Positions 31,015-35,435 of a stretch of 43,641 nt of DNA are shown here, one piece after another. Made by a program: the position numbers and the translations under genes. Source of the DNA: Gammaproteobacteria bacterium. Its GTDB lineage: Bacteria; Pseudomonadota; Gammaproteobacteria; Steroidobacterales; Rariloculaceae. Each line of letters opens with the position of its first letter. The stretch's first letter is position 1. Below the pieces are notes generated by a model. The model was given only the letters and a program-made list of their open reading frames with translations. It searched no databases and was not told the origin of the DNA. Where the stretch lies: NCBI GenBank assembly GCA_029243585.1, contig JAQWRR010000111.1, positions 1 through 43,641 on the forward strand. The letters are read 5' to 3'.

Positions 31015-32031
31015 CTAAGCCCAAAAGGTTAGTACGCGCTCTAAAGTCCAGAAGGTTGAGATAGAGCCTAAAAAATACGCTGTTATAAATCCGATACGAG
31101 CTCTAGAAAAACCAATTTTTATTTGATCGCCCATTTTCATGCGTACTGAATGCATCAGCATGGTAGTGCCAAAAATAACTAAAACAAAAATAACTTGTCC
31201 AATTTCAACGCCTATGTTGAAAAATAATAATGCTGTTGGTAATTCGGTAGTCGGTAGTCCCACCTCCCGCAATACACTAGCAAAACCAAATCCATGTAGG
31301 AGTCCAAACGAACTAGAAACTAAAACTGGATGGCGGTAGGTGAGAGTTGTGTTATTTCCTCGTGCGATCTCTGTCGCTAGAAAGACGATACTTAATGCAA
31401 TGATAGCTTCTACGGCAGGTATTGGTATCGTGATGATATTTAATGTAGATAGGGCTAGCGTGAGAGAATGAGCAATCGTGAAGCCTGTCACTGTTATTAG
31501 TGTTCTTTTGCCAGTGCGGGCAATTAAGACCAACAGTGCCACAAACATTAAGTGATCCCATCCGACCCAGATATGGTCCAGACCAAGCCTTGTATAGTTT
31601 ATAGCAACTTCCCAACGTTCTGGTTCCTCAGGTATTTCCCAATTCAGTTCTCCTGGTGGAAGAAGACCGGAAATTAGCTGTCCATCGTAGGGTTGTATTC
31701 TAATGACTGTTGTCAATGAAGGGTTTGAGCCTGGAAATTCAAGCGAGAGTGTTTTTCCAGATATATCAGCTACGCATTGATATGTTTGTTCGGCTTGATA
31801 GCTGTCTCCTCTTAATGCAATTTGAGGATCTATTTCAGACTGGCATCCATCTGATACTGAGACCATAGGGATTTGATTACGAGGAACTGTTGATGGGATT
31901 TTCCAGCGTAATATGAGTGATTGTGGTGTGCTTTGCACAGCATCAATAAAAATTGGACGTAGATCATGGCTAAGGGTTATTGATGAGGCAGTAATAAAGT
32001 AGACTGTAAGTAGAATTTGGGTGATTTTCAT
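31015..32031 (-). CDS. HupE/UreJ-like membrane protein
   Basis: A 338-residue inner-membrane protein. A signal peptide (about 1-21) is followed by a periplasmic beta-rich domain of about 130 residues, then six to seven helices. The HupE/UreJ signature is seen in LGLDHIWVGWDHLMFVALL, then GFTIAHSLTLALS, VEAIIALSIVFLATEIAR and GLLHGFGFASVL, with the histidines and acids expected of a metal-handling permease. HupE and UreJ are thought to move nickel; this second type with a large exported domain is uncharacterised. No hydrogenase or urease gene is visible in the window. It is third in a tight operon, 11 bases after the parvulin gene. Confidence 0.8.
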   Translation of the reverse strand: MKITQILLTVYFITASSITLSHDLRPIFIDAVQSTPQSLILRWKIPSTVPRNQIPMVSVSDGCQSEIDPQIALRGDSYQAEQTYQCVADISGKTLSLEFPGSNPSLTTVIRIQPYDGQLISGLLPPGELNWEIPEEPERWEVAINYTRLGLDHIWVGWDHLMFVALLVLIARTGKRTLITVTGFTIAHSLTLALSTLNIITIPIPAVEAIIALSIVFLATEIARGNNTTLTYRHPVLVSSSFGLLHGFGFASVLREVGLPTTELPTALLFFNIGVEIGQVIFVLVIFGTTMLMHSVRMKMGDQIKIGFSRARIGFITAYFLGSISTFWTLERVLTFWA

Positions 32032-32042
32032 AGCCTAGATTG

Positions 32043-32930
32043 CTAGTTTGCAAGCATTAAAACCGGATCAATAACAATTTCATATCGATCCATGATTTCT
32101 TGAATTGCTAAAGCTGTATTTTCTCTTGCTTGAGCTGCTTGCGCATCACTTTCTACGCGATCTCGTACCTCTTGAAAAGCTGGCTCTCGTTGTGGCGCTT
32201 GATTGGTTATCATCACAAGGTGAAAACCAAAGCTTGACTCAAAAGGCCCATGCCATAATGAAGAATTGGGTGTGATTTGGAATAAATCTTCGGCAACATC
32301 ACCACCAAGATGGCTTGCTATCAGTTGTGGTGGACGTTCAACATAGTTAACAAAATAGGGGAAGCGGTCGCCGTGATTTGCTGCTTCTTCGAAAGTAACG
32401 CCTTCATTATTTAATTCCACTAGTTTTTCTTCTGCTAGCCTATGAGCCGCTTCTTCTCCACGTCTTTGAGAGTTATAGAAAACATGAGTAAAAGTTATGA
32501 AAGGATCGATATCATAGTTTCTTCGATTGTCCTCAAAGTAAGCGAGAACGTCTTCCTCGCTAATCGAGAGGTTTTCATTAGAAAAACCTTCTGAAAGGTA
32601 ACGAAGTTTTTGTACAAGTCGGCTACGGATAATGTAGTCATCACTATCCAGACCTAATGCTAAGGCTTCTCTATAAAGGATCTCTTCTCTTGCTGCTTCC
32701 TGAATAAGGTCTTCTATTTCTCGTTGAGACATATCATCTAAAAATAGCTCAAACTGTTCCCTGTCAAAAGCGACAGACTGATATTGAAGGAAGGTTAAAA
32801 GAGTTTCTCTATCTACCAGTACATTTCGTTCATCTGATTCTTGATTGCCAGTAAACTGAAATAAGATTAACAGGCCAAAACCCAGCCCAAGAAAATGCAG
32901 TAATGGATCCTTTAAAAAAACCGATTTCAT
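32043..32930 (-). CDS. Membrane-anchored parvulin-type peptidyl-prolyl isomerase
   Basis: A 295-residue PpiC/SurA-like protein. Residues 7-26 form one N-terminal membrane anchor (LLHFLGLGFGLLILFQF), leaving the rest in the periplasm. A helical, Glu-rich N-domain (residues 35-140, ISEEDVLAYFEDNR) resembles the SurA/PrsA chaperone part. The parvulin domain at about 143-255 shows ITFTHVFYN, FEEAANHGDRFP and LWHGPFESSFGFHLVMIT. It probably folds or assembles an exported or membrane partner. The gene begins 6 bases after the small upstream gene and lies 11 bases before the HupE-like gene, suggesting that the HupE-like protein is its client. Confidence 0.85.
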   Translation of the reverse strand: MKSVFLKDPLLHFLGLGFGLLILFQFTGNQESDERNVLVDRETLLTFLQYQSVAFDREQFELFLDDMSQREIEDLIQEAAREEILYREALALGLDSDDYIIRSRLVQKLRYLSEGFSNENLSISEEDVLAYFEDNRRNYDIDPFITFTHVFYNSQRRGEEAAHRLAEEKLVELNNEGVTFEEAANHGDRFPYFVNYVERPPQLIASHLGGDVAEDLFQITPNSSLWHGPFESSFGFHLVMITNQAPQREPAFQEVRDRVESDAQAAQARENTALAIQEIMDRYEIVIDPVLMLAN

Positions 32931-32936
32931 TATTTT

Positions 32937-33323
32937 TTACGGGAATTGCATCCCCTGGCCAGCAGTTCCTCCAGGAGAGCCTTCACTGCCTGGTACAATG
33001 ATTGAGGATGAAGCTTCCCGACGCATCTCTTCGAGACGTTGCATAGCTTCTGACAAAGCCACCTTTGCGCCTTCTCCAAATTTTTCGATTGCTTCTTTCA
33101 TCGTAGTTGCTTCCAACTCAAAACTCAGCGGTAGTGCGCCTGCAGGCGTCAAAATTTGTGTTTGGCCTACATAAAGCTGCTGACGAGTGCTGTCATCAGT
33201 ACCATCAGAATTAACCGGTGTTAATATTTGTAAGCTCCCGACTCGCCGATCTGTATAGGTTTCTTCCCGGTAGAGATTCTCAGCTTCCATCTGAATTTCT
33301 GCGTCAAGTTGTTCATCTGCCAT
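32937..33323 (-). CDS. Small conserved-looking protein of unknown function, first gene of the HupE-like operon
   Basis: A 128-residue protein that I cannot name. No signal peptide or membrane helix is present, so it is probably cytoplasmic. The N-terminus is acidic (MADEQLDAEIQMEAENLYREE). The middle is likely beta-rich and contains QILTP twice (32-36 and 56-60), the second in GQTQILTPAGALPLSFELEA. A long amphipathic helix follows (about 74-103, ending QRLEEMRREAS), and the last 17 residues are Gly/Ser/Pro-rich. It is the promoter-proximal gene of a three-gene leftward operon and divergent from phoX. The ordered, motif-like centre and good spacing make it a real gene. Confidence 0.75.
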   Translation of the reverse strand: MADEQLDAEIQMEAENLYREETYTDRRVGSLQILTPVNSDGTDDSTRQQLYVGQTQILTPAGALPLSFELEATTMKEAIEKFGEGAKVALSEAMQRLEEMRREASSSIIVPGSEGSPGGTAGQGMQFP

Positions 33324-33434: not shown

Positions 33435-35435
33435 ATGTCTTCATCGAATGATACGACACCGCTATCTTTATGGCAGCGGCGATTAAGCCGCCGGCAGGTG
33501 ATTTCCCGTGGTTCTGAACTGATGTTTATTTCTACTTTACCTTCTGGGTATCTACTTGCTCAGCAAAATGATTCTCAATTACAGATTAATTTTGAAACCG
33601 TATCTCCATCAAGTTCAGATAAGGTAGTTGTGCCCAATGGGTATCATGCTGATATTTTATTAAGTTGGGGCGACCCACTTTTCCCAGGAATACCCGCTCT
33701 TGATCCAGATACTGTAGCCCGTGGTGATCTGATGCTGCCTGCAGCAGCACAGCACCAGCTTGGACAGTTTGGCTACAACTGTGATGGTATGAGTTTGTTT
33801 GAACTAAATGATGAAGAAGTGGTTGTTTGCATTAATCACGAATATCCCAATCCCGAACTTCTATTTCCTGGTTATAGAACGGCACAACGTGCTGGCATGG
33901 CTGGTGATTTTATTCATCAAAATCCTAGCTGTGTTGATTTTATGAAAGGTACTGTTGGAGTCAGTGTTGCACACTTTCAAACTGGTGAAACCTGGAAGCT
34001 AGTGCTGAATTCACCATTCAATAGAAGAGTAACAGCAAATACTCCTATGGAATTATCAGGACCAGCTCGTGGCCATAGATTTTTTAAAGGCTCGTTGGAT
34101 AATGACGGCAAACAAGTAATAGGAACACTATGGAACTGCGCAGCAGGACGAACTCCTTGGGGTACTTATCTCACAGCAGAAGAGAATATAGACGAGTATT
34201 TTGGTAATCGTCGTGCGGCAAAATTTTCAGCGGATGTTGAGCAAGGACATAATCGTTTTCTCCCCAGGGGCGGTGAAAGTCGTTTTCGTTGGGAATTTGC
34301 TGATAATCGGTTTGACGTTGAAACCAACCCTAATGAGGCATTTAAATTTGGTTGGATAGTAGAGATTGATCCTCTGGATCCATCAAAACCCATAAAAAAA
34401 AGAACAGCCCTAGGTCGATTCAAGCATGAGGGAGCTACCACTTCTTTAACTCAGGATGGGCGGTTAGTAGTTTATATGGGCGATGATGAAGCTTTTGAAT
34501 ATTTCTATAAGTTCATTACTAACAAACCGTTTGATCCAGTAGAGCCTGAGAATAATGTAGATCTATTAGATTCTGGGACCCTATATGTAGCTCACTTTAA
34601 AGAAGATGGTAGTGGTGAATGGATGCCGTTGGTTTGGCAGCAGACCGAAATGTTAACGTCTAGAAATGGTTTTGAGTCGCAAGCGGATGTTGTACTTCGG
34701 TGTAGAGCAGCAGCAGACCTTGTTGGGGCGACCCCAATGGACCGACCTGAAGATATCGCAGTCAACCCGAGAACCGGCAAAGTGTATCTGGCTTGTACTC
34801 GTAATTCTGATAGGGTTGAGGGAGAGATGGAAGTTGAATCAGCCGGGCGAAGGACTCAAGCAGGCTCTATTGGTTCAAATCCACGTGGTCCTAATCCTTG
34901 GGGACATATAATTGAGCTTTCAGAGCATCATGATGATGGAGGTTCTTTATTATTTAACTGGGAGATTTTCTTGTTGGCAGGAGATCCTGCAAAAGGACAG
35001 TTTCTAACGTCATTAGATTCAAGTGTAAAAGCATTAGATCCTGACAGTACTTATTTTGCTGGGCATGAAAATTCAAGTGAGCTCAGTTCATTTGGTTCGC
35101 CCGATAACTTGACCTTTGATGCTGAGGGTAATTTATGGATTACTACAGATGGAGATCAACCCAGAGGTAATAATGATGGATGTTTTGTATGCCCCACAGA
35201 GGGGGTTAGTAAAGGGGGAGTACGTCAGTTTATGAGTGGTCCAGTAGGTTGTGAAATCACCGGCTGCGAAATTACACCTAATGGGGGAGGTATTCTATTA
35301 GGAATACAACACCCAGGTCAGGGTGGGACTGTTGAAGAGTCAATCAGTAGTTGGCCTGAAGGCGGGGATGCTGCACCTAGACCAAGTGTTGTATTGGTAG
35401 AGCCAGAGGATCGGCAGCGTAAGCTGACTGGTTGA
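33435..35435 (+). CDS. PhoX-family alkaline phosphatase (DUF839), Tat-exported
   Basis: A 666-residue periplasmic phosphatase of the PhoX type, which uses Ca and Fe rather than Zn and releases phosphate from organic esters. The Tat signal is RLSRRQVISRGSELMF followed by a hydrophobic stretch. Family landmarks are GYHADILLSWGDPLFPG, GYNCDGMSLFEL, VVVCINHEYPNPELLFP, CAAGRTPWGTYLTAEEN and RPEDIAVNPRTGKVYLACT (in segments), the latter supplying metal ligands. The C-terminal part has FGSPDNLTFDAEGNLWITTDG. PhoX enzymes are common in marine bacteria under phosphate limitation; no Pho-box was identified upstream. It is monocistronic and divergent from the small gene at 33323. Confidence 0.88.
   Translation: MSSSNDTTPLSLWQRRLSRRQVISRGSELMFISTLPSGYLLAQQNDSQLQINFETVSPSSSDKVVVPNGYHADILLSWGDPLFPGIPALDPDTVARGDLMLPAAAQHQLGQFGYNCDGMSLFELNDEEVVVCINHEYPNPELLFPGYRTAQRAGMAGDFIHQNPSCVDFMKGTVGVSVAHFQTGETWKLVLNSPFNRRVTANTPMELSGPARGHRFFKGSLDNDGKQVIGTLWNCAAGRTPWGTYLTAEENIDEYFGNRRAAKFSADVEQGHNRFLPRGGESRFRWEFADNRFDVETNPNEAFKFGWIVEIDPLDPSKPIKKRTALGRFKHEGATTSLTQDGRLVVYMGDDEAFEYFYKFITNKPFDPVEPENNVDLLDSGTLYVAHFKEDGSGEWMPLVWQQTEMLTSRNGFESQADVVLRCRAAADLVGATPMDRPEDIAVNPRTGKVYLACTRNSDRVEGEMEVESAGRRTQAGSIGSNPRGPNPWGHIIELSEHHDDGGSLLFNWEIFLLAGDPAKGQFLTSLDSSVKALDPDSTYFAGHENSSELSSFGSPDNLTFDAEGNLWITTDGDQPRGNNDGCFVCPTEGVSKGGVRQFMSGPVGCEITGCEITPNGGGILLGIQHPGQGGTVEESISSWPEGGDAAPRPSVVLVEPEDRQRKLTG

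Follow-up and report, generated by a model that had tools for sequence, protein, structure and literature searches.

The three genes described here lie on the minus strand at positions 31015-33323 of the window, that is, the whole stretch of 43,641 nucleotides analysed, and are separated by intergenic gaps of 6 and 11 bases, which confirms the compact, co-directional arrangement given in a preliminary description of this DNA. The first gene (32937..33323, minus strand) encodes a small protein of 128 aa, the second (32043..32930, minus strand) a parvulin of 295 aa (PF13145), and the third (31015..32031, minus strand) a HupE/UreJ-2 permease of 338 aa (PF13795) carrying an exported anglerase-like domain. 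A PhoX gene (PF05787) runs divergently from the small gene on the plus strand at 33435-35435, with its start 111 bases away, and a convergent gene for an EamA transporter lies behind the operon. The divergent PhoX/small gene arrangement was also seen in two other genomes (G013, locus L020, and G020, locus L044), in neither of which the small gene has the parvulin-HupE pair as its neighbour. Because the homology-weighted gene caller overlooks the small gene at some loci, the small-gene and parvulin counts reported in this work were taken from search coordinates; by these, the identical trio in identical order is present in 7/7 genomes of the window's genus, which is above chance. Scans for promoters and terminators gave scores below the shuffled means. 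In this genus the parvulin-HupE pair immediately follows the small gene, so the trio is probably transcribed together without forming a single machine.

The HupE-like protein matched HupE_UreJ_2 (PF13795) with 143.5 bits (cut-off 24.5) and, more weakly, PF04955 with 30.1 bits (cut-off 23). Residues 1-21 (31969..32031, minus strand) form a predicted signal peptide, and the predicted cleavage falls between TLS and HDLRP, both calls being based on a pattern and not on a trained predictor, so that His22 (codon at 31966..31968, minus strand) is the predicted mature N-terminus. This is the sole His of the exported domain, and no other His occurs before residue 153. The exported part, predicted from a structural model to be a beta-sandwich at residues 22-137 (31621..31968, minus strand) that includes Cys63 and Cys86, precedes a membrane domain matched by Pfam at residues 146-295 (31147..31596, minus strand). 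The signal peptide and large exported domain read earlier from this gene are therefore upheld, as a signal-peptide-like start and a predicted beta domain of about 115 residues. The segment HDLRPIF (residues 22-28) is invariant in 8/8 rows of the nearest HupE relatives, and the membrane domain holds H153-X5-D159-H160, H188, E208, H246, N272, E276 and Q279 invariant in 18/18 rows; the H-X5-D-H motif is important for nickel transport. Of 41 parvulin-linked loci, 34 have His and seven have Asp as the predicted first mature residue, as judged by a pattern that sought only H or D after small residues, to which any other residue is invisible and which left locus L183 unmatched. With Asp in 7/41 of these loci and in 6/12 pairs of a phylum sample, the other six of which start with His, the His start of HupE is not universal. 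The Asp-start pairs, of an ADELRP-like type (L214, L215, L218, L221, L222 and L223), point to a possible switch of metal ligand. The window's genome also encodes a second HupE_UreJ_2 protein (L211:1846-2526, minus strand) of 226 aa that has no exported domain, has a His-like predicted mature start as well (HGITG) and is encoded beside the TRAP-transporter genes DctP and DctM. A second HupE/UreJ-2 branch (L187-L206) has no parvulin, and many of its members have a predicted mature start like DVVKPALVEI.

The parvulin matched PF13145 with 35.9 bits (cut-off 27), its PPIase domain being placed by Pfam at residues 123-257 (32160..32564, minus strand), and a hydrophobic N-terminal stretch at residues 9-26 (32853..32906, minus strand), recognized from the sequence and the alignment, is the presumed membrane anchor. 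Judged by these features, the protein is presumably a membrane-anchored, periplasmic peptidyl-prolyl isomerase/foldase of the parvulin type and the partner of the HupE-like protein. Taken by itself, the parvulin profile hits 258/274 genomes of the class sample, mostly as weak matches inside frames of at least 600 residues, which we take to be PpiD/SurA-type proteins; as such a profile matches nearly everywhere, adjacency rather than presence was counted.

HupE was matched in 73/274 genomes of that class sample, from which the 40 best places other than the window's own were selected by HupE score alone, four of them (two per half) lying too near a contig end. A parvulin gene stands directly upstream of HupE on the same strand at 14 of the 36 assessable loci, and the split by score is sharp: 14/18 assessable loci among the top 20 versus 0/18 among the next 20. 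The phylum sample, with a HupE match in 51/249 genomes, behaved alike, the parvulin being beside HupE in 12/12 of the best loci and in 1/17 of the others (29 loci other than the window's own, one per genome, again picked by HupE score alone). On a quick HupE tree of 65 rows the parvulin label changes three times, versus a shuffled mean of about 20 (0/500 shuffles), and the parvulin and HupE distances correlate with r=0.905 (188 pairs, 20 loci); both the tree and the correlation include the relatives' loci L047-L066, which were picked from HupE/parvulin matches and are biased to pairs. When the small protein was regressed out as background, the correlation was still r=0.884, with 0/2000 permutations as high. 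A scan of viral contigs gave three loci. Judging from gene order and sequence divergence, parvulin and HupE-like genes seem to form a two-gene unit of wide occurrence, and the pair looks like an anglerase-like HupE permease that has a foldase of its own; such a pairing of parvulin and HupE/UreJ-2 was not found in the literature searched, which consisted of open-licence papers.

A DUF3604 gene (PF12228) lies upstream of the parvulin at 8/14 class loci and at 9/12 phylum loci (altogether L169, L170, L171, L172, L176, L178, L180, L182, L214, L215, L218 and L220-L225), the phylum flanks spanning 1,500 bases, so that a more distant DUF3604 could be hidden there, and the matches at L218 and L220 being weak or cut. 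The parvulin might accordingly serve mainly DUF3604, or exported proteins at large, with HupE as just a frequent neighbour, or the three genes might constitute an exported-enzyme cassette whose permease supplies or removes a metal. In G175 the HupE gene lies on a different contig from the parvulin, which overlaps DUF3604, and this does indicate that the parvulin may also serve DUF3604. However, DUF3604 is matched in 12/39 genomes of the relatives set, and the pair persists in the window's 77%-complete genome and in G002, G003 and G006, where no DUF3604 match was obtained; together with the strong co-divergence of parvulin and HupE, this makes these alternatives unlikely.

The small protein is a different case. 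Its two QILTP motifs, noticed at the outset, were read from the sequence at residues 32-36 and 56-60, and the long helix announced with them is predicted at residues 75-105, after beta strands at 17-25, 29-37, 50-59 and 62-70 and before a Gly-rich tail of low confidence; the model of the core is confident (pLDDT >90 for residues 11-80, in blocks). No Pfam family matched it over the cut-off and none matched in NCBIfam, a sequence search of the PDB returned only designed proteins, which match its helix, and the model gave no clear fold match, the best Foldseek E being 0.33 and the best VIA Z 5.8 (Rv2632c). A SecB-like reading of the small protein was dropped, being unsupported by any listed match. 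The family itself is wide: 350 stretches were confirmed in a scan of named genomes, the 80 shown being mostly Gammaproteobacteria by record title, and it occurs in 35/274 genomes of the class sample. In 72 of those 80, as parsed (L067-L146), a Gly-rich linker has a median length of 14 residues, half of them Gly, and in 63 the C-terminus reads hydrophobic-(Q/R/K/H/T/N)-hydrophobic-(P/R), seven more missing the last residue alone; this conserved motif may serve for docking to a partner that the family shares.

The small protein had been proposed as the cytoplasmic partner of the other two products, so that the three together would form one machine in which the small protein takes metal from the permease, or regulates it, and the parvulin chaperones. 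Its adjacency and shared direction in 7/7 genus genomes agree with such a machine, as does G010, where two other genes separate the small gene from the parvulin 2.5 kb downstream on the same strand. Nevertheless, conservation of the small gene beside the other two, the very feature on which the proposal had been staked, ends at the genus. Among 39 related genomes the small protein is present in 27, the parvulin in 21 and the HupE-like protein in 28, and yet the small gene adjoins the parvulin in 0/12 genomes outside the genus that hold both, while 8/27 small-gene genomes have no detectable parvulin. Outside the genus (14 loci) the divergence of the small protein does not track that of the pair (r 0.17 with HupE, 0.26 with parvulin). 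Moreover, in G012 (L023), G015 (L015) and G021 (L013) the small gene adjoins the same EamA, DUF2390 and FAD-oxidoreductase genes as in the window, and the pair is absent between them; this is most simply explained by an insertion of the pair downstream of the small gene within the window's genus. Inspection by eye of the wider neighbourhood of the small gene revealed no constant partner. A three-part machine is thus highly improbable, and the small protein, a tempting partner by position, belongs to a conserved family unnamed in the libraries searched and is most probably a passenger. What survives of the metal-import unit of three is the parvulin-HupE pair and, by resemblance, an exported domain that handles metal.

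That resemblance is one of predicted fold. The AlphaFold model of HupE, built from eight sequences, has a pLDDT of 74 and a pTM of 0.58, falling below 50 at residues 19-22, and places the beta domain at residues 27-132. Foldseek alone returned nothing for the exported domain at E<=0.001, and 999 of its candidates were re-aligned by VIA-align. The best match was ZrgA (8f1b; Z 10.9, rmsd 2.7, 107 aligned), and PA4063 (7ahw) gave Z 9.4-9.6, rmsd 3.0 and 104 aligned. Ang-1 (9gce) reached Z 7.7, rmsd 2.8 and 100 aligned, a value that is tied with the unrelated ELIC channel domains (Z 7.0-7.5) and below the tool's safe level; a sequence search of PDB chains with the HupE-like protein gave no match, 9GCE included. 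According to PMC12537917, HupE/UreJ-2 proteins with an N-terminal His bind copper and nickel through a domain named anglerase, and for one of them, Ang-1 (RbAng-1a, PDB 9GCE), the Kd is 73.6 nM for copper and 220 nM for nickel, with His1 as a ligand; its authors report 8F1B as the closest fold of Ang-1 and propose for it a role in capture and uptake. By resemblance of its predicted fold, the exported domain of the window's protein may likewise handle metal.

As to which metal, the name of the HupE/UreJ family invites the view that the protein is a nickel importer for hydrogenase or urease. The matches to PF13795 and, more weakly, PF04955 speak for it, as do the nickel transporter HupE of R. 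leguminosarum, cited in PMC12537917, and the binding of nickel by Ang-1 reported there. Against it, the 18 parvulin-bearing genomes of the window's family have NiFe hydrogenase in none, Ni-SOD in none and urease in four, 14 of the 18 being without a match to any of these enzymes; all 21 parvulin-bearing genomes among the 39 include hydrogenase in two (G024 and G028); and the window's genome (77% complete) gave no hydrogenase, Ni-SOD or urease match and encodes the short HupE without an exported domain besides. This scarcity makes nickel for the three enzymes counted, hydrogenase, Ni-SOD and urease, unlikely as a general purpose, so that the nickel initially associated with the locus is weakened and an importer dedicated to hydrogenase or urease appears doubtful; copper and zinc are no less possible than nickel. 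By analogy, copper fits the published anglerase affinity, and zinc is also possible given the predicted ZrgA/PA4063-like fold.

Our preferred reading, to which we assign a probability of roughly 60%, is that the pair is a conserved two-gene module for metal capture and uptake, leading from the exported His22 to the permease and having the parvulin as its foldase, and that the small gene, conserved but solitary, has no relation to it. It builds on gene order, adjacency, co-divergence, the conservation of His22 in the lineage and the resemblance of the predicted fold. From these we infer signal cleavage, metal binding, a direction of transport and a foldase role, as follows. A signal peptidase would cut the HupE-like protein so that the exported domain begins at His22, whose free amino group and side chain would bind a divalent metal, most likely copper or nickel and possibly zinc. 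From the exported domain the ion would then move to the permease, which would carry it inward along its invariant His, Asp and Glu residues, and the membrane-anchored parvulin would fold or assemble the exported domain, or perhaps the permease. The direction could be reversed, or the HupE-like protein could be a sensor, given that transport direction is unreadable from sequence and that the fold neighbour PA4063 has been proposed as a sensor (PMC9820375). However, the function-tested HupE/UreJ members are reported to carry nickel inward (PMC2667541, PMC12537917) and the authors of Ang-1 favour capture and uptake (PMC12537917), which leaves an exporter or a sensor very unlikely. Beyond the capture-and-uptake module itself, a broader conjecture, improbable as a whole, would make the parvulin-dependent branch of anglerase-HupE/UreJ-2 proteins a distinct and widespread metal-acquisition cassette of Pseudomonadota, composed of DUF3604, foldase and capture-permease, in which the foldase would be needed to mature an N-terminal metal claw, DUF3604 would be an exported enzyme that requires metal and that the cassette serves, and lineages would swap His and Asp as the first residue that grips the metal.

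HupE/UreJ-2 proteins were named for an accessory role to hydrogenase and urease, and one branch of them can now be placed with a parvulin and often with DUF3604, so that three poorly known families become testable together for function. With regard to known systems, the window's parvulin resembles the PpiC/SurA/PrsA-type parvulins in matching PF13145 over the cut-off and in its hydrophobic N-terminal stretch, and has profile matches to the structures of HP_0175, cell-binding factor 2, PrsA and SurA; unlike them, its gene is tied to, and co-diverges with, one permease family. The HupE-like protein shares with the HupE/UreJ permeases (PF04955) the similarity of the membrane domain and the H-X5-D-H pattern, but differs from them in its exported domain, in its parvulin partner and in a genome, 77% complete, that has no hydrogenase or urease match. 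The periplasmic zinc-binding proteins ZrgA and PA4063 provide the best folds for the exported domain, and a cysteine pair is found in each, which does not imply equivalence; they are separate proteins with His-rich loops, and ZrgA serves an ABC transporter, whereas in the window's protein the domain has only one His and is fused to a permease. Finally, the anglerase-HupE/UreJ-2 protein Ang-1 has in common with the window's protein a signal-peptide-like start, a predicted N-terminal His, a predicted exported beta-sandwich and a PF13795 membrane domain. PMC12537917 names other frequent neighbours of anglerase genes, and the word isomerase is absent from it; the window's protein, on the other hand, is distinguished by the parvulin gene that precedes it, and its related pairs may start with Asp.
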